From a virus, in the IMG/VR virus record IMGVR_UViG_3300042378_000048, positions 1 to 37,313 of that record: a stretch of DNA of 37,313 nt; one strand, given 5' to 3'. Positions 8,588 to 35,047 of the stretch are shown piece by piece. The position numbers and the translations under genes were made by a program. Each line of letters opens with the position of its first letter. The stretch's first letter is position 1. Below the pieces are notes generated by a model, which saw nothing but the letters and a program-made list of their open reading frames with translations, did no database searches and was not told where the DNA came from.

Positions 8588-8595
8588 GTTGATGT

Positions 8596-11500
8596 TTATT
8601 TACAATCTTTAGTAATTGTTTTGTTGTCTATAAGTTTCTGAATAGCTTCATCTACATTTGAAGACTCTGCAAATATATTAAAAAATTCTTCAAATCCTTC
8701 TAAAGGTGTTTGTGTTTCTTCAGTTTTTTGTTGACTTTCTAATGCTGCAATTTGTGCATCATATCTTTCATTGATTGTTTTTTCTTTTGCTTCTTTTATT
8801 TTTTGAGATTCTTTATCAGTATAATCATCTTTTACAAGTTCTGTTTTTATAATACCTTTTGCATCTAATTCAAAATCAAATTTTAAATAATCTTGAATTG
8901 ATTCATTTGATAAATTATTATATCTTTTAGCTTTGGTATCTTTTGTAGCTATTTGTATACTACCATCTTTAAAAGTTATTACTTGTAATTCTACTAATAA
9001 ATTATCTCCAGTATCAACTATTATTTTTTCATTTTTAATTGGTGTAATTTTATCTATTTCTTCTTGTTGTTTTCTTTTTAATTCAGCTATTGCTTCTACA
9101 TTAGATTCTTGAGATGTAGGAGTTTGTACTGGTTTTTGTTCAAGTTTCTTTTTAAGATTATCATCTAATTGTTTAGCAAATTCAGTAGACTCATTAGTAT
9201 TCTCAGATAATAATCTTTTAGCATCTTCTACTTTTTCTTCTATAGTACTTCCTATAAATTCCCAACCTGCTTCTTCAAAAAGAGGTATTTGTTTTTGTAA
9301 CTGCTCATCTGTATATGTACTGGCAACAAGATTATTGAGTTGTTTATTCTCTTCTTTAGTTTCTGTTTTAGGACTACTGTATTCAGCACTATTTCTATTA
9401 GGTGGAGCAACAGCTTTAAATTCAATATTAGGTTGGAACCTTGTAATGAAATGAGGTTTATCAGCAGTACCTGCATTTTCTAATCTAATATCTGTTTGAG
9501 CATCCTTCATTGAGTACTCAAAGTAATTATAATTTGATGACTCTTCAATAGAACCATCTTCATTTATTAATCCCATTTTAAACTCAGAAGAGTTTATGTC
9601 AGGATTATTAAAATTATTTTTTACATTTAAGTATTGTTCAGATAAAAATTGTCTTAGTTCAGTTTCATATTTTTTTAAATCATTTTCATTCTCAATTGTA
9701 AATTCCTTTCCACCCTTAACTCCAAATCTTAATTTTGTACCTTCATCATTAATGTGGATGTATGATTTATTATTTGCTAAGCTAGTTGGATTTTGTGTTC
9801 TTACAAATTTATTTGTGTATTGAAAAAACATGTTACTACCTGAAAATCCAAGTTTTTTTAGGTTAGTAATTAAATTATTTTTGTTGGCTCCACCTGTTAA
9901 ACTTACTGAAAACAAGTTCATTAATGAGTCAACTAATTCTTCACTTACTTTTGGAAAATCAGTAGTTAATATTTTATGACTATCTGCATCCCATTGTCTT
10001 ACATCAATAGTATGACCATATTTTAATTGCTCTAATAACTCAGGAGTAAATTGATTATCGTCAATCTTAAACTGTTTTTTAAATTCATCAAATGGAATTA
10101 TAAAAGATTTATTTCCATTACTCACATACATATGAGTAATTTGTTTATTACTTACAATTGCTCTAGCAAGAACAGCATTCTTATTTATACTTCTAATTCT
10201 TTTCTTTTCATTGTTAGGGAATTTTTCAATCATCCCTCCTGTCTTAGCTGTTATTTCAATCTTAGGAGTTCCACCTTTTTTATTAGTATCAATTATATAT
10301 TTTCTTAAAGCTCTAAGGTCTGCAAGTTGTTTTTTCTTATCTTCTGCATTAAGCTTATCATTGGTTTCTATTTTACTTACATCATGAATATAGGAAACTG
10401 CATCTCCTTCATTATCAATAATAGTAAGAGGTACAGCATCATAGTATGCTTGAGATTTTAAAAAATCATTTCCTTTTTCTTTTACATTCTTAACTACCCA
10501 ATCTTTAAAAGAAATTAATGCAGCTTTACCATCAGGAGTAACTTTAACCTTACCATTAGCATCTCTATCTTTAATAAGAATATCTGCATTATTAGCAGCT
10601 ACTTGTACATTAAGTTGAGTGCCTGGATTAAACTTATCTCTTCTTAATAACTTTTTAAATTTCAAAAAGTTATCAACATCTTCTTCTTCATATTCTTCAA
10701 GTATAGTTGATAAACTTCCATCTTCATTTTCTATAGTTTTAAAATTACCACCCTTATTAGTAGAGTTATAACCAAATCTAAATATAGTATCACCAAGTGA
10801 AAATACTTCAGTAGCCATTTCACCTGATGCAGTTTCAACAGGAGTTTTAGAACTGTTAATTTCTTTGTTTAAATTATCAGCTTGTTTTTGAGCCTGTTGT
10901 TCCATCAGGTTTTGTTCTTCAGCAAACTGCAATAAAGAACTTGCCATCTCTTTTCTACTTCTGAATACCTTATCAAATACAGCTTGATAATTATCAATAG
11001 GCATTCCATTTAATTCCCAACCAAGAATCAATGTGTTGAATAATCCTCTTACTTGGTCTTTGTTAGAATTAACAATATAATCTCTGATAAACTTTTCAAA
11101 TGATGGTTCAGAACCAAGTTCATCTTCAAGTGCTACTAAGTAATCACCTACTTCTTGTTTAATTCTAGCTCTTGCTTCAGGACTTAATTTGCTATTTACT
11201 TCTTTAGGGTCATAACTAATTGATTCTTTTTCTACTGCAGCATCACTACTTTCTTTAGGGTCATTACTTACAGGTATTTGAAACTTATATCTATTTGGTA
11301 TAGTTTTATTTTTAGTAATATCTAATCCTGAATTATTATTAGCTTGTAGTCTTTGAATTAACTCTAATTGTTTTTTACCTTCTTCATTTAACTCATCACT
11401 CTGTTCATCAACTTCAAGGTCTATAGTTAATTGGTCATTACCAGAATTTTCTATTTGTTGTTTGATATCATTAACAAAGTTAATTAACTCAACATCAGTA

Positions 11501-14500
11501 TTATTATCAACAGATTGTTGATTTAATTTATATTCATTTATTATTTGTTGAGCTATTGACTTTTTAACATTACCAAGTAATCCTGCTACAAGATTTTGAT
11601 TAGGGTTTTCTTTAGCAAGTTCCTTTTCTAATAATGCTTTTTTATCATCACTAATTTTAAGATTATTATTTTTAAGAACTGTATCAATATCAGATTCAGT
11701 TTTTACTTCAGGAGTTATTTCAGATTCCTCATTAAGTATACCACTAATGTTATTTGCAATCTTAGACTTTTCATCAGTTACAGTTCCTTCTTCACCAACT
11801 ACTTGTTCTTGAATATCCTCTGTAATAGGTTCACCACTTGCTTGTTGTTTTTCATAATCAGCTCTTTTATTTTCTACCTTAATAGAGTTAGAGTTTTTAA
11901 ATCTTTCTTCATCAGCAGTTAAAGGTTTATTCTGTGCAAGTTTTCTTGCAACTAATTCTATCTTAGTTTCTTTAGGGAGATTAGTAAAGGGTATTTCTTT
12001 TACAGAATTTTCATCTGCTTTTTTAGTTTCTTCCTCTATATCTTTATTACTCTTTAATCCTTCTTCTAATTGTGCTTTTTCTGCTAACTCTTTTGTAACT
12101 TTTTCTTTATTGTTTTTATTTACAAAAAATTGCTTTCTAAAATTTTCAAAAGAATCCTTAGTCATTTTATTTTTATAATGATTAAGAATTTTTGAATCTA
12201 TTTCCTGCATATACTTATCAGTACCTAATAATTCTTCTAAGTTACCTTTCATAGATTCATATTCTTGAAGTACCATATTTTGATACTTCAAGTTTTTCTG
12301 TAAACCTTTGTCAGTCATCTTAGCATAAGTTTCATTATGCTGTGCTATTCTTATTTCTGTTGCTTCAAGTTCTTCTTGTAAGTCTAAAAGTTCTTGATAA
12401 GGTTTTACACTTTCTTTAATTTGCTGTATTTGTTTATCTGCATTTCTACCAGGAGTAGCACTTACATATCCTTTATTTGTAAGTTCTAATTCAAGTTCAC
12501 CTCTTTCAGTTTTTTCACTTGGAAATACTAACTCACCTGTTTCTTCATTTACAGTAGGTTCTCCTACACCTACTGTGTAGTCATAACCTAAATCAAGTTT
12601 ACCTGCTTGTCTTAAAAGTGCAACTTCTAATTGAGCTTCATTTCTTTTTTCAGCAATCTTATTTTTTATTTCTTGTGCTAACTTAGCATCTTGTTTTTGA
12701 TTAGCTCTATTTTTAAATACACTTCTACCATTCTCATATTTTAATGAATCATTAAAATCATTTTCCATAGCAATAATTTCTTGTACTGCTACTGCTGCAG
12801 CTTGTCTTACTTCAGGTTTTAATGTTGTATCATCAGCTATTTTTTGCCAATTTTGAATAAGATTTTGAGTAGTGCCTGATTGATAAGCATCATAAGCTTG
12901 AACTGCAAGTATTTGTTTACTTTTTTGTTTAGCTTCTTCAGTTTTACCTTGAGATTCAAGTGCATTTATTTCTCCTAAAATTTTATTTAACTCTTGTGCA
13001 CTTCTTACAGGAGCAGTAAGTTGTTCTACTATATCAGGCATCCCAACAGATGCACCTATTTCATTTTGTTTTTTAATTACTTCTTGTTGTTTATTATAAG
13101 CTTCTTTATGGTCTTTAGCACCAAAAGCTTCTATTCCTATTTTCATTCCTCCACCAACTCCAAATCCTATTAATCCCCCTACAATACTATCCCAAGAAGA
13201 TAATTTTTTCCATGCATCAGATACAGTATATTCTCTACCCTCACCAGCAGCCATACCCATATCCTCAGCTATATTTTCAACTCCCCATTCTTCTACAAAT
13301 TCTTGACCACCTTCAACTAATGTGCCTTTAACACTATATGGAGATTTAGAAATTATATTTCTTGAAGTTCTTGGAAGTCCACTAAAAACTCTTGTAAATG
13401 CAGATGACATTGAAAGGTTTAAAAGGAATGCAGGGGCCATTGCTTGAATACTTACTTCAGCACCTTTACTTGCACTTTTAGTTGCAGATTGATGTAAGTC
13501 AGGATTTTCATCAGCAAATTTTTGAAGATATTCTTTTTTTGCTTTTAATCCCATTGCTATTGCATCTTCATCACTTTCACCATTTTTAAGTGCATCTTGA
13601 ATTGCTTTTTCATAAGTTGCATTCATTGCAGTTTCTAACTGAGGAGATAAATCAAAAAGTTTCTTTTGATATGTTTCATTATACACTCCTTGTGCAATAG
13701 AAAACCCTGTAGTTTGAGTCATTAAAAATGCTCCACCTATTACATCTAATGCTTTTTTTGTTCCACCTAAATTACTATTTGCAAATGCTGTAGCTCTTAC
13801 AGCTTGTTGAGCAGCAGTTAATCCTTTTAATCCACCACGAAAAGCTGATATTGATTGTGAAACTTTAAATGCAGAACCAGGACCTATTATATTTCCTACA
13901 ATACTACCAGCTATTTGAGGAGCATAATTAGCAACTGTATTTATTAAATTTGATTTAGTTTTAACAGTATGATATACTCTATCTAACTCTCTTATTTCAG
14001 AAGCTCTTCTTGTAAGCCAGTTACCAAACATGTGTTCACCATCTCCAAATATAGTATGATTATCTAAAAACTTAAAAGGACTATTTAACCAATCTGCTGT
14101 TTTATTCCAATCTTCTGCATCTTTTTTAACTTGCATTGTATTCCACATGTTTCCTTGTATATCACGATTAGCATCAAGGCCTCTATAGTCAACATCTGAA
14201 TATTCACCACTTAAACTTGGTATTCTCCAATCAGCAGGGTCCATTAATGTTCCTAAATATTCTTCTAATGCAGCAGCAGTATGTGTAAGAAATGAACCTG
14301 TCATTTTATACAAAGTATTTCCTAATCCATCATATTCATTTTCTATTGATTCTTTTCTTAAATTTTCATAAGTTTTTTCAAATTGTTCTTCAAGTGCTTG
14401 TTGTGACCAAGAACTTCCAACTAAAACTTTAGGAGTTGAAATAGCAGAACTAATGTCAGGACTCTTTGAATATTTATTTATTGCAGCTTGAACATCAATT

Positions 14501-14598
14501 ACTTCTCCATTAATTGTTGCTGTTTTTGGTTGATTAACAGGAGTAACATTTACAGGTTTAGTATTTTGATTTACAACTTTATCATCTTCATTTGCCAT
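8596..14598 (-). CDS. Large virion cargo protein with hydrophobic Gly-rich helices (2000 aa)
   Basis: It sits directly upstream of the RNA polymerase, where crAss-like phages encode giant proteins packaged with it. The first 500 residues hold several glycine-rich hydrophobic helices, at about 219-245 (with GSIVGNIIGPGS), 283-303, 376-402 and 469-492 (SIVGGLIGFGVGGG). They are linked by an acidic helix, EGGQEFVEEWGVENIAED, like those in large polyvalent phage proteins. Residues 500-1350 are mostly charged, Glu/Lys/Gln-rich and helical or disordered; the C-terminal third looks more globular. There is no signal peptide and no recognisable catalytic motif. The pattern suits a protein that is ejected and inserts into the host membrane, but that is inference. 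The start follows an AT-only leader 14 bases after the previous stop. Confidence 0.8.
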   Translation of the reverse strand: MANEDDKVVNQNTKPVNVTPVNQPKTATINGEVIDVQAAINKYSKSPDISSAISTPKVLVGSSWSQQALEEQFEKTYENLRKESIENEYDGLGNTLYKMTGSFLTHTAAALEEYLGTLMDPADWRIPSLSGEYSDVDYRGLDANRDIQGNMWNTMQVKKDAEDWNKTADWLNSPFKFLDNHTIFGDGEHMFGNWLTRRASEIRELDRVYHTVKTKSNLINTVANYAPQIAGSIVGNIIGPGSAFKVSQSISAFRGGLKGLTAAQQAVRATAFANSNLGGTKKALDVIGGAFLMTQTTGFSIAQGVYNETYQKKLFDLSPQLETAMNATYEKAIQDALKNGESDEDAIAMGLKAKKEYLQKFADENPDLHQSATKSASKGAEVSIQAMAPAFLLNLSMSSAFTRVFSGLPRTSRNIISKSPYSVKGTLVEGGQEFVEEWGVENIAEDMGMAAGEGREYTVSDAWKKLSSWDSIVGGLIGFGVGGGMKIGIEAFGAKDHKEAYNKQQEVIKKQNEIGASVGMPDIVEQLTAPVRSAQELNKILGEINALESQGKTEEAKQKSKQILAVQAYDAYQSGTTQNLIQNWQKIADDTTLKPEVRQAAAVAVQEIIAMENDFNDSLKYENGRSVFKNRANQKQDAKLAQEIKNKIAEKRNEAQLEVALLRQAGKLDLGYDYTVGVGEPTVNEETGELVFPSEKTERGELELELTNKGYVSATPGRNADKQIQQIKESVKPYQELLDLQEELEATEIRIAQHNETYAKMTDKGLQKNLKYQNMVLQEYESMKGNLEELLGTDKYMQEIDSKILNHYKNKMTKDSFENFRKQFFVNKNNKEKVTKELAEKAQLEEGLKSNKDIEEETKKADENSVKEIPFTNLPKETKIELVARKLAQNKPLTADEERFKNSNSIKVENKRADYEKQQASGEPITEDIQEQVVGEEGTVTDEKSKIANNISGILNEESEITPEVKTESDIDTVLKNNNLKISDDKKALLEKELAKENPNQNLVAGLLGNVKKSIAQQIINEYKLNQQSVDNNTDVELINFVNDIKQQIENSGNDQLTIDLEVDEQSDELNEEGKKQLELIQRLQANNNSGLDITKNKTIPNRYKFQIPVSNDPKESSDAAVEKESISYDPKEVNSKLSPEARARIKQEVGDYLVALEDELGSEPSFEKFIRDYIVNSNKDQVRGLFNTLILGWELNGMPIDNYQAVFDKVFRSRKEMASSLLQFAEEQNLMEQQAQKQADNLNKEINSSKTPVETASGEMATEVFSLGDTIFRFGYNSTNKGGNFKTIENEDGSLSTILEEYEEEDVDNFLKFKKLLRRDKFNPGTQLNVQVAANNADILIKDRDANGKVKVTPDGKAALISFKDWVVKNVKEKGNDFLKSQAYYDAVPLTIIDNEGDAVSYIHDVSKIETNDKLNAEDKKKQLADLRALRKYIIDTNKKGGTPKIEITAKTGGMIEKFPNNEKKRIRSINKNAVLARAIVSNKQITHMYVSNGNKSFIIPFDEFKKQFKIDDNQFTPELLEQLKYGHTIDVRQWDADSHKILTTDFPKVSEELVDSLMNLFSVSLTGGANKNNLITNLKKLGFSGSNMFFQYTNKFVRTQNPTSLANNKSYIHINDEGTKLRFGVKGGKEFTIENENDLKKYETELRQFLSEQYLNVKNNFNNPDINSSEFKMGLINEDGSIEESSNYNYFEYSMKDAQTDIRLENAGTADKPHFITRFQPNIEFKAVAPPNRNSAEYSSPKTETKEENKQLNNLVASTYTDEQLQKQIPLFEEAGWEFIGSTIEEKVEDAKRLLSENTNESTEFAKQLDDNLKKKLEQKPVQTPTSQESNVEAIAELKRKQQEEIDKITPIKNEKIIVDTGDNLLVELQVITFKDGSIQIATKDTKAKRYNNLSNESIQDYLKFDFELDAKGIIKTELVKDDYTDKESQKIKEAKEKTINERYDAQIAALESQQKTEETQTPLEGFEEFFNIFAESSNVDEAIQKLIDNKTITKDCK

Positions 14599-17107: not shown

Positions 17108-20100
17108 TTATCTTCTTTTAGTTGCAGCTTTAATAAATGACTTATCAGTTACAGTAGGTATATTTATATCTTTAAATATAGGATTAAAGTAAGGAGTATT
17201 TCCTAACCCTAAAGGATTAATTGCAGGAATCATATTAGAAGTTTTAACTGGTGCAACAGGAACATTAGAAGTAGTAGGATTAACAGGAGTATTAGGAATA
17301 ACAGGTGCAGTTGTAGTACTTGCTTTTTCAAGTGCAGCTTTCTTTTCTGCTTCTATTCCTTTTTCTACTATTAACCTGGCTGTTGTTTGGTCAATATCTT
17401 CACCATTATGTGTCATTACATATTTACCCTTTCTCATTTCTACACCAATACCATACTTAGAAAACATTGGTGACATTTCTAATATCATCTTATTGTATTG
17501 TGCTTGATTCATATCTCTACCTTGTTTCTGCATTAGTTCAGATTGAGATGCAAAGTTTTCACTAAGGTTACTGTAGAAGTTATCAACATCTTGTCTATCA
17601 GCTAAATCTCTTTGGTATTCACCTGTCATTACTGCTTGGTCTTGTTGATTTTCCATTTGTGCTTTTTGACCTAACAACTGCATCATCTGTTGAGCATAAG
17701 CATTGTAAGCTTGGTTCTGTGCTTGGTTAGCTCCCATATCAGCAGCAATATCCATTGCTCTTAAAGTATTAACACCTCTTGCAGAATTTCTACCTCTTTG
17801 TCTTGATGCTTCTTCTCCTAATTTAATATCAGCTAATTGTTTATCTCTATTAATACCAGAGAGTGCTTGTGCTTCTTGCATAGCTCTTAATCCTTCAGCA
17901 CCAAATTCTCTAAAGAAGTTTTGATTCTTAGGAGTCATCATTCTATTTAACATAGTAGTTGTAGCAGGTGCAAGTCCACCAAACAATGTACCTGCCATAC
18001 CCATTAAATCACCACGAGTATAATCTAAACCTTCATCTGACTTAGTACCTTTTTCTTTTTTAGGTTTACCATCTTTATCAAACAACCCACTAAAGAAATC
18101 ACCTGTTTGGTCTACTGCTTTATTTAAAAAGTTCATAAACTTATTAGGTTTCTTAGGGTCTTCTTCAGGTAACATTTTATTACCAATCACTTCATTGTAA
18201 AGTGGATTAGGAATCATTCCACCTTTAGTATTAATGTATGGGTCTTTTGAAAGAGCAATATTTTCAAATGTATTTCCCATTATATTACTCATTACATCAT
18301 AAGGATTTACACCTGGAGGTTCTGGTTTAGTTACATCAACACCTACATTTTTTCTAAGGTCTAATGGATTAGTATTAAAATTTGTAAATTGATTAAGTTG
18401 TTCTTCTGTTAAATATGGAGGAGTAATATTTGCAACTTTAGTTTTAGAATTTAAAGTATTTACAGATTTTGTTTTAGACATATTATCATCATAAACTACT
18501 GTCATTGGATTTCCTTGTTCATCATATTCTAAATCTTCCATAACTTGAAAATCTTTTCCATATAGATTTTCAGTAGGAATTAGTTTATTATATTGTTGCT
18601 TATTAACTGCATTAGCAAGTGTAGGGGATATATAATTTAATAACCCATAAGGAGGAGTACCATTAACAAGTTTACCACCATACATCATCATTCCCATTTG
18701 TTGCATCATAGCAGGGTCTTGCATTAAACCAGCCATTGCTTGTTCTTGCATCATACCCTGTTGAGCTTGTTGTTGCATTTGTTGTTTCTGATTAGCTTGT
18801 TCTTGCATAGCCATATCACTCTGCTCTTCTAAAGCAGCAGTTTCCTGTTGTCTTTTAAGTGCTTCTTTTATAAACTTATCAGAAGGATTTTTACTAAGTA
18901 TCTTTTCTAACTTAGCAACATTAGCTTCTCTTTTAGTTTTTCTATCTGCCATAGTTTTACCATTGACTTTTAATTGTTTAGAATAAACCTTAGTTTGTTC
19001 AGGAAGTGCTACTGGTATTCCACCATTATCATGTGATGGTCCTTCAAACTCTCCCATTTCACCATTAGGTAGTTCATAAGCTTCTCCTCCCTCTACTTCA
19101 ACAGGAATGTTTTGAGGTACTTGTCCACCTTGTGCATAAGAACCATACATCATTTGTTGCATGTACATTGATGGGTCAATCATGCCACCATAAGCCATAG
19201 TAAAACCTGTATTAGGTTTTGTAGGCCTCATTTCTTGTTCAGGTTCTCTAATAGCTTTAACCATATCAGTTACAGCTTTAGTTGTAAGGTTTACTAAAGC
19301 ATTAGCACCTACATCAAAAAGCATAGGTGTTAATCCACCTGCCCACATTTTAGGAAGTTTGTTATTCATATCATCAGTTATTGTACCACCATAAGCTCTT
19401 TTACTCAAATTAAGTGATTGAGCATAATACTCACTTGGCGAAAGACTTTCCTTTAAAGCATTAATCATTTTTTGTCCTTTTGTTGGTTGATTTTCATCTA
19501 TCAACTTTATACTTTCATTCTTTTTAATCATTTCTTTTGGTAATTTCCAAGGTGTAGTTTTTTGTTTTGCTTTACCTTTAGGAGTATATGTTACTCCTGC
19601 TTTAACTTCAAATGGGGATGCTTTATCTTTTTCTTTTTGAGCTTCACTTAAAGTTTTATAATCAACTCCAGCTTTAACTCCAAAACCATTTCTATTATAT
19701 CCAACATTAACACCTAATTTATTAGTAGCAGGATTTTCTTCTGTAGCAAATTGTCTTTCATAATTAGCATCTGCATTAAAGTTTTTACCTCTATATCCAA
19801 CTTTAGCATCTAAACTTCTGTTTCCAGTTTCTTCTTCAAGGTCTAAATTTGTTTTGTAATTTACATTAGTTGCAAATTTTTTACCTTTATATCCAAGTCC
19901 TGTTCTAACATCAAAGTTTTTATTTTTATAATCAACAGCTGCATTAGTAGTGAACCCTTGTTTTTCAGGAACAAAGTTAAGATTAAAATTATAATTAGGG
20001 TCAAGTTTATTTCCAGTAAATCCAAGATTACCAGTAAACCCATTTTTAGAATAACCTATTTTAGCATCATGTATAAGTGGGTCTTGATTATCTCTTGATA

Positions 20101-23100
20101 TTGCATAGTTAGCAGTAAGACCATTTCTATCATAATCTAATAATCCTAAATTAAAATTAGATTTGTTTTTAGCATTATTAGATTTAAGATTATTATTTTT
20201 ACCTTTTGTAAGAATAGATTTAAAGTCATCTTTTTTACCACCTTTATAATTAAAGTTAGTACCTATGCCACCCACATTAAAACCTGCTGTAATATCATAA
20301 TCATTTTGATTACCAGTAAATCCAAAGTTACCAGTAACTCCATCTCTATCATAATTTAAACCAGCTTCATAATTATATGGAACATCTTTATTTTTTGTTG
20401 CTTTAAAGTTTGCATCAAATCCATTACCCTTATATCCTCCACCAAAATCAAAGTTAGGATTTTCTTTATTAAAGTTATAATTGTAATCTCCAGTAAATCC
20501 ATACTTATCAAATCCTAAATTAAATTTAGCATTAGGATTATTTTCAGCTGTAGAGTTTGTATAATCAGCACTACCTTTAAATCCAAATCTATCTCTATAT
20601 CCTAACCTTGCATTAAAGTTTAATTGTGAATTAGGATTATCACTAGCAAATGTAAAATCTTTAAGAGGAGCTAATTTTCTATCACTAGTTATACTTGTCA
20701 TTTGATTAAATGGACCTACTTTATACCCTAGTCCAACATTACTTAAACCAGATGACATTCCTCTTATATTAGGATTAAATCCTGGTTGTCTTAAACTTTG
20801 ATTTAATCTTTCTTGATATGGATATACAGTTCCACCATTATCCATTTGTGCTCTAATCTTTCTTTCTTGCTCTAACATTTTTTTAGTAGGCTTTTTACTA
20901 GAACCTTTATTAGCTCTAATATTATCCCACAATCCTCTTTTAGAATAAGAACCATCTGCTCTTTTAATCATACCACCTGTTCCATACTCATCTCCACTTG
21001 TTGTAAAATTATTATTTTGTAATACCGATTTTTTCTTTTTCATAGTATTAGTTATTATACCACCATTAGCAGCAGTAGATATAGGAGTATTATTTTGATT
21101 ACTTACAAAAGAATTAAACATTTTAATTACATCTTCTTCTTTAAAAGGAATCATTAAATCTTGTATTTGTGACTTTAATGAATTTTCTTTACTCATACCT
21201 TTTAAAGGAGTAAGTTCTAAATTCTTTTTTAATTCATCATAATGTTTCTTTTCAAATCTTTCATTAACTGGGTCATACATGTTATTATCTAACATCCACT
21301 TTCTAACAGCATCTACTCTTGCTTTTACTTCAGTAGGTCTTTCATAATATTCTTTGTCATTATAAACTTCTTTAAAATCTTCTGGTAAATTAGCTTCATC
21401 TATTGTAAATGGATTATTAAAATACTTTAAACCTCTACGACCTAATGTAGAAGCATGAGAAAGTTCATGTAATTCTGTAGCTGGTAAATCTTGATTTTCA
21501 TTTATAAATACAGTATGAGGATTATTTACTTTACTCTTATAAGACCTTATATTTTTAGCATAATTTAAAAGACTTTCTGTAAGATTTGGATTATCCATTA
21601 TAGTAGTATAACCATAATTTTCTATAAATTTTTCTTTACTTTTTTCCAATTCTTGTAGTTGAGCATTCATTTTATTTTTTTCATCCTCAGAAAATTGAGG
21701 ATAATAAACACCTTCCCAAGCTCCTTTGTCAGAATTTTCATAATCACCAATCTTAACAGTATTTAAATTATTATTTATAAACTGTCTGTAATCATCAGCT
21801 TCAGTAGATATATTTGTTATAGGTTTATTTGTCATCATAGCATACCTTTCATTAAACAAAGGACTGTTTGTCATTTGTTTTAAAAAGTCTAATGATGTAG
21901 TATTTGTTGGTTCTATTGGTCCACCTGTTTGATATTTAGGAAGTTTCTTTTTCGTATTAGTTATTTTTCCTCCCATAGCTTTTTGTTCAGGTGCAGATTC
22001 TTCTTGTGACATTAACTGAGAACCAATTGTACCAGCAGTTGCAACTCCAGTTGTTGCTGGTAATGCTTCATTTAACCATTTTAAAAAGTTTGGTTTATTT
22101 AATCTTTTAATAAGTTCAGGTGTAAATATATAATCATCAGTTTTTATAAATTTATCAAGTGTAGTTTCGTCTATTTGTTCAAATGGACTTTTTATAAATC
22201 CTTTATCTACCATTAATTTTTTTAAATCTCTTGATAACCAAGCTTCTTGTTCTACTGGATCTAATCTGTATTTAGTATAATTATCTCTAATATTAGTTTC
22301 ATCAAAATTTTGAGAAATTGCTTCTTTGTATTTTTCTGGAAATTGTGCTCTCCATTTTTTTGTAAAATGTTCTTTATGTTTTAATTCATGTGGTAATGCA
22401 TTATCTACTCTTACTTGTGTTATATTTAAACCAGGAGTAAATCTACCTAATACCCTACTTTGTCTTTGAGCTTCGTTAAATTCTTCAGTTGTTAAATCAT
22501 CAATACTCTTCTTTAAGTTTTTTAAATATTCATCACCAAAATCTACATTAGTAAATATATTTTTATAATATTCAGGAGTTTGAGTATAATTAGACATTCT
22601 AGTAAAAAGACCAGCTGCATCTTCAAACTCGTTCCTTTGTTGAAATGGCCCAAATAATAAAGAAGGTCTATAATCATTATTTCTCAAAGGTCTTCTTGTT
22701 CTTGTTTCTCGCAATGTTAATTGTCTTGCAAAAGGATTAAAATCAGTTGTTTGTTGTTGGTCAGTTAAAGTTAAATTACTATTAGTAGGTCTTTCTTGTA
22801 TTGATGTATCACCATATTTAACATCAAGCTCTTTAGCTTTTTGCGCATATCTTGGGTCTGATGTTACATTTTTAACATAATCTATTCCTGTTTTATTTTT
22901 AAACTTATTTTTAAATAAGTTTGGTAAAACATCTTGTAATTTATTTAATTGTTTAGCATACTTAGATGTTTTTGTAAATGCTTTTCCTGTTAAAATATCT
23001 AAAGGTACATCTATACCCATTTGTACTAAAGGATTATCAGAAACCAATGCACCAGGAGTCATTTGGTCATTAGTAGGTAACCATTTTTTATCTTCAGATG

Positions 23101-23518
23101 TTAGTTGACCTTCTAACCCCATATCTTTCATTGCTCTTGTTAAATTAGGCAATGCAGAATAATAATCATTTCTGCCTGATAAAGCTTCTCCCATTAATGC
23201 TAATGGAGTATTCATTACTTCACCAGTATAAGCTAATGCAGTACCTACTCCTTGAACTGCTCCTTTTACAAATTTACCTCTACCTTTTCTAACTTTATCT
23301 TGAGCTTTACCTACTCTTTGCTTTTTATAAAATTCATCCCAAAGTTTATTCATACTTTTTGGAACACTTACCCATTCTTGGTCAGCTTCACTCCAAACTA
23401 TATCACCATCTTCAAACTTATCTTCATACATTTGAGCATAATTAGGAGAGTTGACATCGTAAATTTTACTGTCAACTTGTACCTGATTTTTTTTAAGTTT
23501 TTTCTTTTGCTTACTCAT
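17108..23518 (-). CDS. Multi-module cargo protein with two HExxH motifs and beta-hairpin repeats (2136 aa)
   Basis: Modules in order: a basic N-terminus with a hydrophobic Gly/Ala patch (about 84-112); HELKH at 377-381 with E423; HELSH at 684-688 with E730; a conserved phage segment including KRADGSYSKRGLWDNIR (852-868); 11-12 beta-hairpin repeats (about 965-1315); a conserved segment with EGPSHDNGGIPVALP (1491-1505); a Met/Gln-rich run (1566-1613); a helical C-terminal third; and a Pro/Thr-rich tail. About a dozen x-G-G-x-(I/L/V) motifs separate the modules. HExxH plus a downstream Glu is the zincin metallopeptidase signature, so peptide-bond cleavage in the envelope or virion is plausible but unproven. 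The ATG overlaps the muzzle stop as TAATG. Placement between muzzle and polymerase implies a packaged, ejected protein. I am sure of the gene and fairly sure of the virion role; enzymatic activity is inference. Confidence 0.82.
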   Translation of the reverse strand: MSKQKKKLKKNQVQVDSKIYDVNSPNYAQMYEDKFEDGDIVWSEADQEWVSVPKSMNKLWDEFYKKQRVGKAQDKVRKGRGKFVKGAVQGVGTALAYTGEVMNTPLALMGEALSGRNDYYSALPNLTRAMKDMGLEGQLTSEDKKWLPTNDQMTPGALVSDNPLVQMGIDVPLDILTGKAFTKTSKYAKQLNKLQDVLPNLFKNKFKNKTGIDYVKNVTSDPRYAQKAKELDVKYGDTSIQERPTNSNLTLTDQQQTTDFNPFARQLTLRETRTRRPLRNNDYRPSLLFGPFQQRNEFEDAAGLFTRMSNYTQTPEYYKNIFTNVDFGDEYLKNLKKSIDDLTTEEFNEAQRQSRVLGRFTPGLNITQVRVDNALPHELKHKEHFTKKWRAQFPEKYKEAISQNFDETNIRDNYTKYRLDPVEQEAWLSRDLKKLMVDKGFIKSPFEQIDETTLDKFIKTDDYIFTPELIKRLNKPNFLKWLNEALPATTGVATAGTIGSQLMSQEESAPEQKAMGGKITNTKKKLPKYQTGGPIEPTNTTSLDFLKQMTNSPLFNERYAMMTNKPITNISTEADDYRQFINNNLNTVKIGDYENSDKGAWEGVYYPQFSEDEKNKMNAQLQELEKSKEKFIENYGYTTIMDNPNLTESLLNYAKNIRSYKSKVNNPHTVFINENQDLPATELHELSHASTLGRRGLKYFNNPFTIDEANLPEDFKEVYNDKEYYERPTEVKARVDAVRKWMLDNNMYDPVNERFEKKHYDELKKNLELTPLKGMSKENSLKSQIQDLMIPFKEEDVIKMFNSFVSNQNNTPISTAANGGIITNTMKKKKSVLQNNNFTTSGDEYGTGGMIKRADGSYSKRGLWDNIRANKGSSKKPTKKMLEQERKIRAQMDNGGTVYPYQERLNQSLRQPGFNPNIRGMSSGLSNVGLGYKVGPFNQMTSITSDRKLAPLKDFTFASDNPNSQLNFNARLGYRDRFGFKGSADYTNSTAENNPNAKFNLGFDKYGFTGDYNYNFNKENPNFDFGGGYKGNGFDANFKATKNKDVPYNYEAGLNYDRDGVTGNFGFTGNQNDYDITAGFNVGGIGTNFNYKGGKKDDFKSILTKGKNNNLKSNNAKNKSNFNLGLLDYDRNGLTANYAISRDNQDPLIHDAKIGYSKNGFTGNLGFTGNKLDPNYNFNLNFVPEKQGFTTNAAVDYKNKNFDVRTGLGYKGKKFATNVNYKTNLDLEEETGNRSLDAKVGYRGKNFNADANYERQFATEENPATNKLGVNVGYNRNGFGVKAGVDYKTLSEAQKEKDKASPFEVKAGVTYTPKGKAKQKTTPWKLPKEMIKKNESIKLIDENQPTKGQKMINALKESLSPSEYYAQSLNLSKRAYGGTITDDMNNKLPKMWAGGLTPMLFDVGANALVNLTTKAVTDMVKAIREPEQEMRPTKPNTGFTMAYGGMIDPSMYMQQMMYGSYAQGGQVPQNIPVEVEGGEAYELPNGEMGEFEGPSHDNGGIPVALPEQTKVYSKQLKVNGKTMADRKTKREANVAKLEKILSKNPSDKFIKEALKRQQETAALEEQSDMAMQEQANQKQQMQQQAQQGMMQEQAMAGLMQDPAMMQQMGMMMYGGKLVNGTPPYGLLNYISPTLANAVNKQQYNKLIPTENLYGKDFQVMEDLEYDEQGNPMTVVYDDNMSKTKSVNTLNSKTKVANITPPYLTEEQLNQFTNFNTNPLDLRKNVGVDVTKPEPPGVNPYDVMSNIMGNTFENIALSKDPYINTKGGMIPNPLYNEVIGNKMLPEEDPKKPNKFMNFLNKAVDQTGDFFSGLFDKDGKPKKEKGTKSDEGLDYTRGDLMGMAGTLFGGLAPATTTMLNRMMTPKNQNFFREFGAEGLRAMQEAQALSGINRDKQLADIKLGEEASRQRGRNSARGVNTLRAMDIAADMGANQAQNQAYNAYAQQMMQLLGQKAQMENQQDQAVMTGEYQRDLADRQDVDNFYSNLSENFASQSELMQKQGRDMNQAQYNKMILEMSPMFSKYGIGVEMRKGKYVMTHNGEDIDQTTARLIVEKGIEAEKKAALEKASTTTAPVIPNTPVNPTTSNVPVAPVKTSNMIPAINPLGLGNTPYFNPIFKDINIPTVTDKSFIKAATKRR
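19574..20626 (-). repeat. Degenerate beta-hairpin repeat array inside the 2136-aa cargo gene
   Basis: Residues about 965-1315 contain 11-12 degenerate units. Each has a strand such as FNLGF, EAGLNY or DAKIGY, a tight Gly/Asn/Asp turn (DKYG, DRDG, SKNG, NRNG), and a return strand such as FTGDYNYNF or FTGNLGFTG. Unit spacing is mostly 21-32 residues, with one longer insertion near 1092-1120. Alternating aromatic and small residues with short turns on one side and longer polar loops on the other resemble outer-membrane beta-barrel strands. The units are diverged at both protein and DNA level, so this is an old expansion and not a recent tandem duplication. Confidence 0.75.
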
Positions 23519-26500
23519 TATCTTATAGAATTTTGTTCAGTTTCAATAATAAAGTTAGTAGTTAGTTCTACATCCTCAAAGTTAGTGAATCTTAATCTCA
23601 TTACTAAATATTTATCTCTAAAGTTTTCTTGGTCATACCAATCTTTGTTTACATTAATTGCAGCAGGATTAATAACTTTATCAATAGGATATTGAGAAGA
23701 TATAGCTGACCAGTCTTTAGTAAACATAGGAATTGTATAATTAATTCTTACATCTCTAAAATCATTTATTCTCCAATCTCTTTCAGCTCTATCTATTACA
23801 ACTGATGTAGCATTGTTAGTAGTTTGATTCTCATAAAAATCTGCTGGGTTAGCTTGTAAATTTTTAGCAATCAATTGTACTTCACCAGATATTTGTCTGT
23901 TATTATAAACTGTTAATCTGTTAAATGTAACATTTCTTTCTTCATAATAATCTTGATTTACTGCATCATATTTTTTAGCAATAGTTTGTAACATAATATC
24001 TTCCCATAGTCTTGTAGTTATAGGATTAGATACTGATACTGTTTCAATTATATGTGAGTAAAGAGTATCATAATACTTTTGATATAATCCTTGAATATTA
24101 TGTTCCCACTCTGTTTCTCCATCAGCTGAGTAAAAAGTATTTTGGTCTTGAGAATAGAATAGTGGAAGATAAGAATGAAATGATACCCAAGTTTTAGTTA
24201 GCAATGAAAATGAAATAGTAAATGATTTATTTTCAAAAAATGTAGCATCATTAAAAATAATGTTTGTAAAATCTTCTTTAAATCCATAATACACAAAGTT
24301 ATTAGTGTCTATATTAAAATATACTGAACCAGGAATTAATCCTACATAACCAGCATCAATACTTATTATTTGAAAATTATTTACATAGTTAGGTCTTAAT
24401 AAATAATCTCTTTTAGTAAAGATAACTCTTTGATGTCTTGGGTCAAATACTGAATGAATACCTATACCATTAGGATTATTAGGATTGTCAGCATTAGGGA
24501 ATACTTCACCTGTAAGGTCAAAGAATTGTTGAGCAAGATATGGTTTAAGATATTCTTGAAACCAATTATACATACCTTCACCACTTATTTTTGCTAACCC
24601 TCCTTCTGCACCACTAACAAGATATAAACTCTTTTCATATTCAGAAGCATAAAATATACCAAGAGGTGATTTAAGAATACTCCATTTATGATTAGTACCT
24701 GCACTACCCATATCTGAATCTACCATTTTTCTTGGAGGTATTGAGAAGTATTCTCCAGTACCTATAAATGTAACTACTTCATTAACAATACTTTGTTGTA
24801 CATTTTGAGGTAGTAACCATAAACACTCTTCAGTAAATACAAACAATGAATTATTCTTTCTTACTAATCCTGTAATGCCACCATGCTCTGCTTCTATATC
24901 TCTATAATTGTTAGCTAAAAATACTCTATAGTTATCACTTAGTTCTTCTTGAAAACTTGTTTCAGAATAATATACTCTATCAGGAAAAGACTCTAAACAA
25001 TCTGAACAACAATCATAAAGAGATGGTAATGGAAAATAAACTTTTTGTTTATCCATTCTACTAAAGTCAACATTATAGTGATATATCTCTGGACAACAAC
25101 TTGACTTGGCTAAATATTTCTTTTTATCTTCATCAAAGAATAACCATCTATCTCTAAAGTATTCTTCTATATCTTGTGTATAATTATAATAACTACCACA
25201 AACATTATTTTCTACTTGTCTTAAAGCAGTATTAATTTCTGATTCTACATATACTCCAACAAGATGTTCATTAGCATAAAATAAACAATTACCAAGACTA
25301 ACTGACATGCTATCTAATTCAGGGTCTTGACATAATACATCTAATTCACTTTGTTTAAATGCATTCCAAAATGCAGCTATTTTTGTTGCAGTTACTCCTA
25401 CAGCAGCACCACCTATTGCAAGAACTAAAACCCACACAGGTGCTCCTGCACCCACTGTTACTATAGTTATTACTAATGCTGCAACAATAGCAAGTGCTGT
25501 AATTATTTCATCAAAGAATCCTGAAAATGATTCTCTTACTAATGAGTTAGATAAATTAAAATGTGTAATAGATACATCACCTGCATATAATCCAAAATCA
25601 TCAGTTTTTGAATTTGCTTTCAACATACAATTATGCATCTTATAATACTTAATAGAGTTTAATTGACAATGAACATTTCTATCTACTCTCATAGTTATGT
25701 AAGAAATATTCCTTTCATCTAATCCTTGATTAGGAGGAAACAATTGTCCAGTCTTAATCATTTGTACTCTATTAGACCAAGATAAATTATACATTCTTCT
25801 ACCTGGTTCATAAGTATCATCATAAGATAAAGCATCCATTGCAAGTATTTTTAACCTGCAAAGATTTCTACCTGTAAATACACCATTAGTTACTCCACTA
25901 TAATTTTGAACTCTAACTTCTATTCCACTATCCCAATCACCTATAAATGTTCCTACTCCATCATATCTTTCATAATAAAATGTACTATTTGTATATTGAA
26001 ATTCATTTTCTAATTTAATATATTCAGGAACAAGTATATCTTTTTTATATAAAAATTTTGGATTAAATATATAACCATGCCCTCCACCATCTCCATTAAG
26101 TCGAGTAAAATATGTAAATGTAGTATAGTTATAAGAATTAGTATTCTGACTTCTAGCTTTTCCTCCTATACCTGCATCAAGTATAGTTCTATTAAAATCA
26201 TCTCTTTCAGCTCTAACAAAATAATGACCTACAATATCAGGATGTGGATATTCTACATTAGTAAATTTAATTCCTAATAGTTTAAGTGTAGTGTTATTTA
26301 CATAATTTTGATATGCAAAATTAATACTATAAGTAACAGTAAATTCAGCACCCCAACTAGTAATCATTGTACCACTAAATGCTACATTACTAAAAATATC
26401 ATTAGGGTCATTTCCTGGTTCTGTAACTACTGTAAAAGTATATGATGATTCATATAAATCTGATTCTGAAATACTTGTAGTTACAGGAGTTTGTGTAGTT

Positions 26501-28248
26501 GGAGGAGGTATATTATAATCATAAGTAGTAGTTAAATCAATAGCATTTCCAGGGTCAGGCCACACAAACCCATCATTTAAAGTAACTGTAACTGATAAAT
26601 TATAAAATGAATTTATTGAGTTATCATTATCTACATGGTGTTCTAAAGTACGAGAAGGAAACCTATGATGTCTTACAGGTGTACTAACAAGTGGATTACC
26701 ACATATATCTTCTCCCCAATAATCTCCTGATGCACAAGAATCTATATTTTCATAAACACTTCCAAAACATTCCCAATATGCCATTTGTCCTTCAACACCA
26801 GGATTAGTTGCAATAGCAGTTTCATATACTCTCCATTTTTCTACTTTAGGAATTAATCCATCATTATACTGAGTTTCTTGACTTAATGGTACAATATGTT
26901 CTATATTATGAGTCCAAGTATTAATTAAACTATCATCATTTGTAGGTTCACAATTACCTGTATTCCAATTCCATCTTTGATTTTTAGGTGGTCCAGGAAT
27001 ATGATAAACAGGAGATTCAAATCCATCAGCAAATACATAAACTATACCCATAGCATATACTTCACCACCCATAAATCCAATAACTTCATTAGGAGATATA
27101 GGATTTTTAGGATTACCTACTTCACTAATATCTGTATCACCTATTTCTTTTACAATATAACGAGAATGTATTTTAGATGCATATTGTTGAAATCCACAAA
27201 AGTTTACTTGTTTACCTTTTGTATTAGCAAGTAATAATTTATTTTCTAATTGCTCTAAGTGTCTAGCAAGTTCAATATCAATTTTACCTGGTTTAATTTC
27301 CTCAACAGATATTTCTGTATAACCATTTATTCCTCCATCATATATAAATGTAGTTTGGTCAATAGGTATATTAGGAGATACTAAACACTTGTTTACTAAT
27401 CCTGTAAATTGAGTTGCATGAATTGCAGCAATTCTATAATAAGTAAAGTCAGGGTCTAAATTAGATAAATTAATTTGTATTGATTTATTTGTTTTAGCTG
27501 TAACACCTCCTACTCCATCATATTCTAATTGAGATGAACCATTGATATTATTATAAGTTGAAAAAATATTATCATGGTAAATATTAACAGGTCTTGAAGT
27601 TATAATCCAATTAGTAGGATTACCACTTTCATTAAGTAGTTGAATAGCAAAATTATATGAACCTGCTTCTAATTGACCACCAGTATTTAAAACTTCTATT
27701 TCAGAAAAACAAGGAATTTGAAATGGTTGAATTAAATTAAATTTAACACAATTCCATTTTTCACCTACAAATGGGCCAATAGGATTATCTAACCAAGCTA
27801 AATATGCATCACTATAATAATCTTCTAATTTATTAAGATTAACTTGTCTTACAGAATTTAACCCATCTGTAAAATAAATTACTTTTTCACAACCTCTTCT
27901 TATTCTATAAGTTGCATCTATCTGATATTCAATACTAAATCCTAAACATTCAGAATTTACTATTTGAATGTACTCACAATTCTTTACTGTACCTATTTCA
28001 CTATTAGTTCCATTAGTACTAAAGATAACTATCTCATTATCTTTGGTATAAACTTTACCTATTCTATAATATCCATTAGGAAGAGTATAACATTCCTCAT
28101 TTCCTTTTTCATTAGATAACATTGTTCTGTTACCTTCACTTGTTTCATTGACAGCATTAAGTGCATATCTATATGATTCTTTAGGTTGGTCAACAGGATT
28201 AACATCCTGCATCATACCTTTATGTGGTCTATTTACATTGTTATCCAT
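23518..28248 (-). CDS. Tail muzzle / stabilisation protein (1576 aa)
   Basis: The N-terminus contains HKGMMQDVNPVDQPKESYRY, resembling the opening of the crAss-like stabilisation (muzzle) protein that closes the tail end. The body is beta-rich, with many short strands and Asn/Gly/Thr loops. Around residues 1100-1240 there is a conserved-looking block including ANNYRDIEAEHGGITGL, LFVFTEECLWLL and GIFYASEYEKSLYLVSG. A Cys-rich patch (CCPE and CCSDC) precedes it. A long hydrophobic Ala/Val/Ile/Gly stretch lies at about residues 912-963, unexpected for a soluble tail tip. The gene is translationally coupled on both sides: its ATG overlaps the ring-protein stop and its stop overlaps the next ATG, both as TAATG. 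Predicted role: tail-neck/muzzle structure and retention of cargo before ejection. Confidence 0.85.
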   Translation of the reverse strand: MDNNVNRPHKGMMQDVNPVDQPKESYRYALNAVNETSEGNRTMLSNEKGNEECYTLPNGYYRIGKVYTKDNEIVIFSTNGTNSEIGTVKNCEYIQIVNSECLGFSIEYQIDATYRIRRGCEKVIYFTDGLNSVRQVNLNKLEDYYSDAYLAWLDNPIGPFVGEKWNCVKFNLIQPFQIPCFSEIEVLNTGGQLEAGSYNFAIQLLNESGNPTNWIITSRPVNIYHDNIFSTYNNINGSSQLEYDGVGGVTAKTNKSIQINLSNLDPDFTYYRIAAIHATQFTGLVNKCLVSPNIPIDQTTFIYDGGINGYTEISVEEIKPGKIDIELARHLEQLENKLLLANTKGKQVNFCGFQQYASKIHSRYIVKEIGDTDISEVGNPKNPISPNEVIGFMGGEVYAMGIVYVFADGFESPVYHIPGPPKNQRWNWNTGNCEPTNDDSLINTWTHNIEHIVPLSQETQYNDGLIPKVEKWRVYETAIATNPGVEGQMAYWECFGSVYENIDSCASGDYWGEDICGNPLVSTPVRHHRFPSRTLEHHVDNDNSINSFYNLSVTVTLNDGFVWPDPGNAIDLTTTYDYNIPPPTTQTPVTTSISESDLYESSYTFTVVTEPGNDPNDIFSNVAFSGTMITSWGAEFTVTYSINFAYQNYVNNTTLKLLGIKFTNVEYPHPDIVGHYFVRAERDDFNRTILDAGIGGKARSQNTNSYNYTTFTYFTRLNGDGGGHGYIFNPKFLYKKDILVPEYIKLENEFQYTNSTFYYERYDGVGTFIGDWDSGIEVRVQNYSGVTNGVFTGRNLCRLKILAMDALSYDDTYEPGRRMYNLSWSNRVQMIKTGQLFPPNQGLDERNISYITMRVDRNVHCQLNSIKYYKMHNCMLKANSKTDDFGLYAGDVSITHFNLSNSLVRESFSGFFDEIITALAIVAALVITIVTVGAGAPVWVLVLAIGGAAVGVTATKIAAFWNAFKQSELDVLCQDPELDSMSVSLGNCLFYANEHLVGVYVESEINTALRQVENNVCGSYYNYTQDIEEYFRDRWLFFDEDKKKYLAKSSCCPEIYHYNVDFSRMDKQKVYFPLPSLYDCCSDCLESFPDRVYYSETSFQEELSDNYRVFLANNYRDIEAEHGGITGLVRKNNSLFVFTEECLWLLPQNVQQSIVNEVVTFIGTGEYFSIPPRKMVDSDMGSAGTNHKWSILKSPLGIFYASEYEKSLYLVSGAEGGLAKISGEGMYNWFQEYLKPYLAQQFFDLTGEVFPNADNPNNPNGIGIHSVFDPRHQRVIFTKRDYLLRPNYVNNFQIISIDAGYVGLIPGSVYFNIDTNNFVYYGFKEDFTNIIFNDATFFENKSFTISFSLLTKTWVSFHSYLPLFYSQDQNTFYSADGETEWEHNIQGLYQKYYDTLYSHIIETVSVSNPITTRLWEDIMLQTIAKKYDAVNQDYYEERNVTFNRLTVYNNRQISGEVQLIAKNLQANPADFYENQTTNNATSVVIDRAERDWRINDFRDVRINYTIPMFTKDWSAISSQYPIDKVINPAAINVNKDWYDQENFRDKYLVMRLRFTNFEDVELTTNFIIETEQNSIR

Positions 28249-33494: not shown

Positions 33495-34760
33495 TTATCT
33501 GATTTCTCTAAATTTTACTGCTCCTCTACATGCTTGTGTTCCACTTAAACTTTTCATAATTAAAGTAATTGTACCTAATGTTCTATGTGCACCTGCTTGA
33601 TTTAATGTAATTGGATATCTTGAATTGATTGCAGTATTAGTAACTGACTTTACACTTCCACTTGCAGGAACCCATCCACCATCTATTTTAACTGCATAAG
33701 CACCACTTAGTGTACCAGCTGTATTATATTCTGTACTTGAATAAGAAGCACTAACATCATTAAATGTAGTAGTACCTGTTAAATCTTGACCAATTACTAA
33801 ATGCCATTCTACAGGTTGATTTCCTCCATTATAAACTTCAACATCAATAAATGATACCCTTGACCTATTAGTTAATCCATTAAATAAGAGTTTAGGTCTT
33901 AAAGTTAATATATGAGTATTAGATGTTAAAACATTTACAGAACCACTCATTTGTTGAAATGTATATCCAAACTGATTAACATCATCAGTACCTCCTTCAG
34001 ATATTACAGCAGAACAAAGAAAATACATTGAAGTAGTTGCTGTTGCAGTACATGTCATTCCACATCTTACTGGTAAACTTGCATAAGCCAAATAAGGATG
34101 CAATATAAGATTTGAATGAACAAATTCATGTGCATACACAATAACACCATCAATATCAAAACCTATTCTTACTCTACCTGCATACAATGCTTGTAAATCT
34201 ATTACAAGTATTTGAACTTTATCTGTTGCTAATGTAACACCACTTGGACCAGTACCATCTAATTTATCTAAATTCCATTCTGATTGTAACTTAGTAATAT
34301 TACCTTGTGATGTACTTGAATACAAAGTAAACTGTTTTTGTGAACCATCTAATTGATATTCTATACCATTAATACCATCAGAGTAACCTGCAAACTTTAA
34401 AACATTTGATACTCCCTCAACAAAATTAAATGTTATAAATATTAATTGTGATTTACCTGGTTGATATGGTAAGTATTCAAAGCTTTGCATATATGCTTTT
34501 CCACCTGTGGGAGTAGATAAAAAAGTAATATCTGCATGTCTATTTGTAACATCATGAGATATACTTGCTCCACTTCCATTTGTTATTTGTTCATACAAAA
34601 GAGGTACAAGGTCATAAGTCAATTGTGCATTAAATAACGTAAGAGGATTTGAAATTCTTAACCTACTAAATGCATCAAAGTTTGGGGTATCAGAAAAACC
34701 AATATTTTGATAACTACCAACATTATCTAGTTTTCCTGTATAGGGATTAATTCTATACAT
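33495..34760 (-). CDS. Widespread phage structural / receptor-binding-type protein (421 aa)
   Basis: The start is placed at 34760 (MYRINPYTGKLDNVG) because the ATG overlaps the upstream TAA (TAATG) and puts the NPxTGxxD peptide at the N-terminus; an ATG 8 codons upstream is less likely. Segments NFDAFSRLRISNPLTLF, QPGKSQLIFITFNF, LDKLDGTGPSGVTL and GRVRIGFDIDGVIVYAHEF match, from memory, a protein family seen in many tailed phages as a tail or receptor-binding structural protein. It is beta-rich throughout, without signal peptide or membrane segments. It is followed after 13 bases by the fibre gene that shares its N-terminal peptide. Confidence 0.75.
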   Translation of the reverse strand: MYRINPYTGKLDNVGSYQNIGFSDTPNFDAFSRLRISNPLTLFNAQLTYDLVPLLYEQITNGSGASISHDVTNRHADITFLSTPTGGKAYMQSFEYLPYQPGKSQLIFITFNFVEGVSNVLKFAGYSDGINGIEYQLDGSQKQFTLYSSTSQGNITKLQSEWNLDKLDGTGPSGVTLATDKVQILVIDLQALYAGRVRIGFDIDGVIVYAHEFVHSNLILHPYLAYASLPVRCGMTCTATATTSMYFLCSAVISEGGTDDVNQFGYTFQQMSGSVNVLTSNTHILTLRPKLLFNGLTNRSRVSFIDVEVYNGGNQPVEWHLVIGQDLTGTTTFNDVSASYSSTEYNTAGTLSGAYAVKIDGGWVPASGSVKSVTNTAINSRYPITLNQAGAHRTLGTITLIMKSLSGTQACRGAVKFREIR

Positions 34761-35047
34761 TATGTAGTAGTTATATTTGTACAATTGTTTCCAACATAAG
34801 TATAAGTCTGAGTAAATACAAGAGTAGCACCCTCATAGTATTCAGCAACAGTTACATTATTATTAGTATCATAAGTATAATCAATTGAATTACCTGGAGT
34901 AGTACTCCAATTAGCATATAATATAGTTGTATATAATAATTGAGTTACTTGTGTAAGTCTATTTATTGCTTCAATAGTAGCTGCACTACTTTCACAAGCA
35001 CATTGTAATGCTCTATTTATTTGTTTGATATCATCCCTGGTTCCCAT
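34760..35047 (-). CDS. Small structural protein of the fibre cluster (95 aa)
   Basis: The start MGTRDDIKQINRALQCACES at 35047 is preferred over an ATG at 35149, because the latter would add a stretch that merely overlaps the membrane protein upstream. The N-terminal half is a helix with Cys residues. The C-terminal half alternates Tyr/Thr/Asn in beta-like strands (SIDYTYDTNNNVTVAEYY, VFTQTYTYVGNN), resembling short fibre or adaptor proteins of phages. It overlaps the upstream stop by 17 bases and its own stop overlaps the next ATG (TAATG). Function unknown. Confidence 0.65.
   Translation of the reverse strand: MGTRDDIKQINRALQCACESSAATIEAINRLTQVTQLLYTTILYANWSTTPGNSIDYTYDTNNNVTVAEYYEGATLVFTQTYTYVGNNCTNITTT

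Follow-up and report, generated by a model that had tools for sequence, protein, structure and literature searches.

Two predicted zincin-like modules in a C1-like cargo protein of a crassvirus

Few phages of the human gut are as abundant as crassviruses. We know of no account of how crassvirus cargo passes the envelope of Bacteroidota. The window analysed here (the whole 37,313-nucleotide stretch of IMG/VR virus record IMGVR_UViG_3300042378_000048) encodes a giant protein with two HExxH motifs, each followed by a P-x-E motif. The initial annotation read the pair as an internal duplication of a metallopeptidase-like domain in a cargo protein. This locus raises four questions: whether the protein is virion cargo, whether both motifs mark genuine zincin-like modules, whether one module was copied from the other, and what the two might do.

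The giant protein appears to be a version of cargo protein C1

The open reading frame (ORF; positions 17108-23518, minus strand; 2136 residues) is the first gene downstream of the gene for the crassvirus muzzle protein (23518..28248, minus; Pfam crAss_MUZ, E 2.3e-57), which is the slot of cargo protein C1 (gp45 in crAss001). Its C-terminal part matches phrog_15413 (E 1.5e-67), a family with a 628-residue member at the equivalent gene position in Flavobacterium phage Fpv1. The predicted C1 core, residues ~1440-2041 (17396..19201, minus), is homologous to the Fpv1 C1 and weakly to crAss001 gp45: comparison of a core profile with gp45 and the cr108_1 C1 gave an hhalign E of 1.2e-4 over 71 columns of the portal-binding region, against 0.47 for the reversed control. 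The Pfam model crAss_CARG1 did not match the window protein. Because this model fails and the profile support is weak, the assignment comes mainly from gene order and the relationship to Fpv1. As far as sequence and gene order can tell, the ORF appears to be the window phage's own C1-like protein, carrying a mosaic N-terminal extension.

In crAss001, gp45 is located in the tail barrel and the capsid and is expected to exit first, with its N-terminus leading (PMC10172136). By analogy to gp45, the window protein would travel inside the virion and be ejected when the phage infects. The earlier expectation that it is virion cargo fits this analogy.

Ahead of the core, residues 900-1370 (19409-20821, minus) are rich in Asn and Gly and contain recurring units of the form G-[FLVI]-x-x-x-[FYVA], GFTGDY and GVTGNF among them. 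This region looks beta-rich and perhaps barrel-like; it is also present in the related loci L004, L005 and L006, and had no match in Pfam, PHROG or phage records.

Two modules of one zincin-like family

Module 1 spans residues ~281-514 (21977..22678, minus) and module 2 residues ~534-817 (21068..21919, minus). The former contains HELKH at residues 377-381 (22376..22390, minus) and E423 of P421-V-E423 (22250..22252, minus); the latter contains HELSH at 684-688 (21455..21469, minus) and E730 of P728-T-E730 (21329..21331, minus). In both, the two His of the HExxH motif are proposed metal ligands, its Glu the proposed catalytic residue, and the Glu of P-x-E the proposed third ligand. Closely similar linkers follow, GGKITNTKKK at residues 516-525 and GGIITNTMKKK at 819-829 of the ORF. 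Motifs and linkers had been annotated correctly to the residue, and the equal distance of 46 residues from first His to third-ligand Glu (H377 to E423 and H684 to E730) is reproduced in the ORF translation. The two-motif observation is real and so far under-described. The span first marked, 21317-22390, runs from H377 to just beyond E730, while the modules themselves occupy about 21068-22678.

His is scarce in the protein, and four of its 10 His lie inside the two HExxH motifs. Composition-preserving shuffles produced one HExxH in 19 of 5000 cases and two in none. Similarity beyond the motifs was assessed with held-out profiles, scored against 500 shuffles per module in which the HExxH and P-x-E residues were kept in place. 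Against a profile trained on other modules, module 1 scored 27.6 bits, compared with 14.1 for its best shuffle (n=500); with its relative gp056 removed from the profile it still reached 20.9, against a shuffle maximum of 16.8. Module 2 scored 65.9 bits with its own subfamily held out (shuffle maximum 19.1, n=500). When both modules were aligned jointly, module 1 was misplaced, and this alignment does not enter the results. The failure of AF2 to give module 1 a confident fold might suggest that the motifs arose by chance in a helical structural protein, an explanation that the shuffles (0/5000) and the held-out profiles rule out and to which we assign a negligible probability.

Only five columns are invariant in an alignment of 17 modules: H, E and H of the motif, the third-ligand Glu, and a distal Asn in a C-terminal helix motif, namely N483 in KWLNEAL of module 1 (22070..22072, minus) and N802 in KMFNSFV of module 2 (21113..21115, minus). 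The invariance of H, E and H is partly built in, because HExxH was used in picking the modules; the third-ligand Glu and the distal Asn played no part in selection. The conservation of H, H and E in homologues had been named beforehand as one point on which the proposal of two zincin-like modules should stand or fall, and this triad is conserved in the relatives. HELSH and P-T-E of module 2 are kept in L004, L005 and L006 at 61-98% identity.

This conservation also bears on whether one or both modules could have retained the zincin fold as purely structural pseudo-enzymes. Module 1 is very divergent (end branch of 2.06 in the module tree) and module 2 is under only moderately purifying selection overall (dN/dS ~0.5-0.7), both of which speak for this reading. 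Against this, all ligands and the catalytic Glu are retained in both modules and in every relative compared, and the HELSH block is the most conserved part of module 2, with 95% mean identity. We regard a loss of activity as very improbable.

In database comparisons, phrog_24249 matched module 2 (E 2.4e-7) and the L010 module (2.4e-4); module 1 alone gave no match to it. None of the curated Pfam and NCBIfam peptidase models reached its own cut-off, and whole-protein scans returned nothing relevant. In sequence profile searches of the PDB, the top match was twice a zincin, in both cases sub-threshold: deuterolysin 1EB6 (E 0.0075) and 3LQB (E 0.053; record name LOC792177 protein), which we take to be an astacin-type enzyme. 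As a query for close relatives, module 1 alone matched a single contig, which has the same sequence as the window in this region (100% identity); the two-subfamily alignment found no further loci, and a search of genome contigs found no relative.

The zincin fold consists of a three-stranded sheet plus active-site helices. Our model of module 2 is mediocre (mean pLDDT 68); its HExxH lies on one helix (145-159) and its third Glu opens a later one (195-211), and it has two short strands only. In a Foldseek search of BFVD with this model, the best match was phi14:2 g070 (E 3.6e-3, probability 1.00), and the phi4:1 homologue came third. Against solved structures, Foldseek and VIA-align of the same mediocre model listed no zincin, and the matches follow a helical hairpin at residues 72-135. 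The AF2 model of module 1 was unusable (pLDDT 43). For module 1 we infer the zincin fold, as we do zinc binding, catalysis and substrate, whereas the assignment of module 1 itself comes from the held-out profile and the module tree, and that of module 2 from phrog_24249, the held-out profile and the g070 fold match.

The claim of two zincin-like modules thus holds up, with both recovered above motif-preserving shuffles, and it is highly probable that they are genuine members of the zincin family. Judged from sequence comparison, both modules are members of a single, unnamed zincin-like family that occurs widely across Crassvirales, with representatives in Steigviridae, Suoliviridae and epsilon-group phages.

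Elsewhere in the window, the ORF at 33495-34784 (minus) contains HEFVH and matches phrog_1645 (virion structural protein). It had no match to the zincin family HMM, and its motif is probably due to chance.

The modules belong to different subfamilies

The equal spacing and near-identical linkers had been taken as signs that one metallopeptidase-like domain was duplicated within the protein. In a tree of 18 modules, module 1 groups with cr125_1 gp056, cr53_1 gp89, cr10_1 gp64 and two proteins from IMG/VR (88/94), whereas module 2 joins the C-terminal module of phi14:2 and that of phi17:2 (89/94). Branches are long and support is moderate, which limits certainty; a sister placement of the two window modules is not favoured. 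BLASTP of module 1 against module 2 was not significant (E 0.18). Across the wider family the distance from first His to Glu ranges over 35-71 residues, with 45-47 among the direct homologues of module 2, so the shared value of 46 is a coincidence. The linkers are present as described and fail as evidence of duplication, since an A-x-G-G motif marks cassette boundaries in general and also follows unrelated modules. With two subfamilies, a non-significant alignment, a coincidental spacing and a general linker motif, a duplication within this ORF is unsupported. Tandem or paired modules recur in phi14:2, phi17:2 and cr125_1; possessing two therefore seems useful in itself.

N-terminal cassettes are exchanged at A-x-G-G hinges

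Relatives in IMG/VR keep the C-terminal core and differ in the region ahead of it. The window protein begins with a conserved leader, residues 1-180 (22979..23518, minus), common to L004 and L010. In L010 this leader comes with a zincin at the position of module 1, but module 2 is missing; the protein rejoins the window sequence at GGMIKRADG, within the linker that runs from A-N-G-G-I-I up to TGGMIKRADG (20969..21070, minus). In L004 the leader precedes an unrelated module that replaces module 1; the sequence rejoins at KAMGGKITNTKKK, and module 2 is present. This join falls in the A-M-G-G-K-I linker behind module 1 (21920..21976, minus), a cassette boundary just after which L005 starts; L005 and L006 both start just ahead of module 2. 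L013-L015 carry another module and lack HExxH. Sequences are joined at GG hinges, for the most part of the A-x-G-G form, which accounts for the similar linkers behind both zincin modules. The pattern A-x-G-G-x-[ILVM] occurs 5 times in the window protein (0.28 expected) and 7 times in gp45 (0.39 expected); the A-x-G-G motif is enriched in most C1 proteins examined. A conserved C-terminal core would thus sit behind an N-terminal stretch of ~1400 residues, made up of exchangeable cassettes with A-x-G-G hinges between them.

Several of the other cassettes could be described. The unrelated module of L004 (ORF 8846-14563), residues ~181-355, lies between the same leader and the same A-M-G-G linker; it has no Pfam match and, by eye, some ADP-ribosyltransferase-like features. 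The N-terminal ~165 residues of L014 (ORF 7445-11617) form a third, different module, which ends in a QPEQKAMGGMIKR-type join. A cassette of ~50 residues (IKPSKRGTFTAAAKK...ANFARNAAKW), bounded by GG hinges, is found in L006, L010, crAss001 gp45 and the cr108_1 C1, and so recurs in C1 proteins of distant crassviruses.

In the L011, L014, L015, Fpv1 and crAss001 records, the zincin profile recognised no module, which indicates that zincin activity is not essential to C1. L011 does contain HELVH, although the family profile gives no module there.

Such variability could also be the mark of an arms race, in which the zincins are effectors that cut host periplasmic or cytoplasmic proteins after ejection, for counter-defence or take-over. 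The slot behind the leader, which holds a zincin in the window and L010 and an unrelated module in L004, and the further N-terminal module of L014 would fit such a role. However, there is no sign of a host protein target, and the module pairs of crassviruses as distant as phi14:2, phi17:2 and cr125_1 better suit a general entry function. An effector role is, in our view, decidedly unlikely.

A possible role in crossing the cell wall

In the proposed mechanism, zinc would be held by both His of HExxH and by the Glu of the following helix, with the HExxH Glu acting as general base. After ejection, the modules would cut peptidoglycan peptides or envelope proteins, allowing cargo and genome to cross the cell wall. 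What makes peptidoglycan or the envelope a plausible target is the fusion of family members to phage tail lysozyme, which is N-terminal in phi17:2 gp042 (PF18013, E 9.1e-32) and C-terminal in cr108_1 (E 4.6e-20). The phi14:2 protein g070 lies right after the gene in the muzzle position, matches Pfam crAss_CARG1 (E 2.8e-10) and is an MS/MS-supported virion protein, as written in its own record. Owing to the two lysozyme fusions and the presence of g070 in virions by mass spectrometry, a virion-borne role in crossing the wall is the best supported reading, and we put the probability that this predicted metallopeptidase pair acts on the wall or envelope at about 0.5. An early exit of the zincins from the tail is not general, as those of phi14:2 lie C-terminal to the C1 domain.

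The main rival is that the zincins process virion or cargo polypeptides, for instance C1 at its own A-x-G-G hinges, during assembly or after ejection, releasing the cassettes. Maturation proteases are usually encoded between the portal and major head protein genes, and this is where the stand-alone relatives of Suoliviridae are found. An A-x-G-G hinge also stands behind each module, and Iyer et al. (2017, PMC5512222) propose that phage MPTase domains commonly serve auto-processing. However, such hinges are also present in C1 proteins with no recognised zincin (L014, crAss001 gp45), a fusion to tail lysozyme better suits wall hydrolysis, and the MPTase-bearing N4 vRNAP enters the particle without being processed (PMC5512222). 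Processing is a possibility to be taken seriously, if on the unlikely side. We think it rather unlikely that the N-terminal half of C1 is, as a whole, an exchangeable delivery platform, in which enzyme cassettes, zincins and others, swapped at A-x-G-G hinges would be carried in the virion and ejected first, the paired zincins of two subfamilies opening the wall or cutting the hinges to free the remaining cassettes.

If wall crossing is the correct reading, a virion-associated zincin family, lysozyme-fused in some members, would supply candidate entry enzymes for crassviruses, which the cultured Cellulophaga phages phi14:2, phi17:2 and phi4:1 make testable. Swapping of cassettes at A-x-G-G hinges would also illustrate how new enzyme modules are acquired by a core cargo protein. 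The main text of the 2023 crassvirus virion atlas makes no mention of a peptidase or protease (PMC10172136), and no description of such modules turned up in the open-access literature searched for zincins and peptidases in crassvirus cargo. The Crassvirales-wide family, its place in C1, the lysozyme fusions and the module exchange at A-x-G-G seem to be undescribed in open-access papers; giant phage proteins with MPTase domains (PMC5512222) and the HExxH domain of N4 vRNAP (PMC12633501) are already known.

Comparison with known systems

The closest counterparts are the Cellulophaga 'tail proteins' of phrog_24249, including phi14:2 g070 and phi17:2 gp042, with two HExxH modules each; phi17:2 is an epsilon-group crAss-like phage (PMC7886860). 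Like the window protein, these and the phi4:1 tail protein have tandem HExxH modules with an intervening linker (A-M-G-G in phi14:2) and are encoded directly behind the gene in the muzzle position, and module 2 groups in the tree with the C-terminal module of g070 and that of gp042. They differ in size (593 and 739 residues, against 2136), and their N-terminal modules fall outside the subfamily of module 1. The phi14:2 zincins are placed after the C1 domain, and the C-terminal part of C1 is apparently encoded by a separate gene; phi17:2 has the extra N-terminal tail lysozyme. The crAss001 gp45 protein shares with the window protein the post-muzzle gene, the A-x-G-G hinges and a weak profile match over the portal-binding region, but has 842 residues and no HExxH.

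Further members of the family are found in Dulem virus 41, cr108_1, cr109_1, cr114_1, cr125_1 (two adjacent genes), cr53_1 and cr10_1, where gp64 is annotated 'peptidase'. Those of cr10_1 (gp64), cr125_1 (gp056 and gp057), cr53_1 (gp89), cr109_1 (gp90) and cr114_1 (gp053) are stand-alone proteins. Of these, gp056, gp89 and gp64 resemble module 1 in having E-(Q/N)-x-A at the third-ligand Glu, as well as the last-helix Asn. The stand-alone relatives differ in having a single module and in being encoded between portal and capsid genes, and several need TAG to be read as Gln, for example HE*AH in cr114_1 and cr125_1. In both of these the TAG is a codon of the HExxH motif itself (L030:4413-5525, cr125_1 gp057; L028:4413-5315, cr114_1 gp053). 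The small crassvirus 'protease' genes beside the portal gene (L053:2191-2544, noted as a putative zincin, and L058:1947-2411) encode a different HExxH protein type (NHEKIH, NHENIH). The proteins cr109_1 gp91 (annotated zincin) and cr53_1 gp90 (annotated protease) are of a small HExxH type but are a different protein of ~117-154 residues, with neither P-x-E nor the last-helix motif.

Beyond crassviruses, the nearest parallel is provided by the MPTase domains of polyvalent proteins, which occur in one to five copies in giant phage proteins and are thought to be delivered with the DNA (PMC5512222); an HExxH domain is also carried by N4 vRNAP (PMC12633501). In these domains, including the C1 domain of N4 vRNAP, HExxH is followed by a Glu on a later helix (Iyer et al. 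2017); in the window modules it is followed by a conserved Glu that would lie on a later helix. A polyvalent protein combines unrelated domains in a single delivered chain, often with MPTases; the window protein is built of multiple cassettes, two of them MPTase-like, and Pfam and PHROG assign no activity to the others. Iyer et al. (2017) describe 12 clades of MPTases; the window modules match no curated Pfam or NCBIfam peptidase model. Whereas those domains are borne by RNA polymerase or ArdC-type proteins, the bearer here appears to be crassvirus C1.
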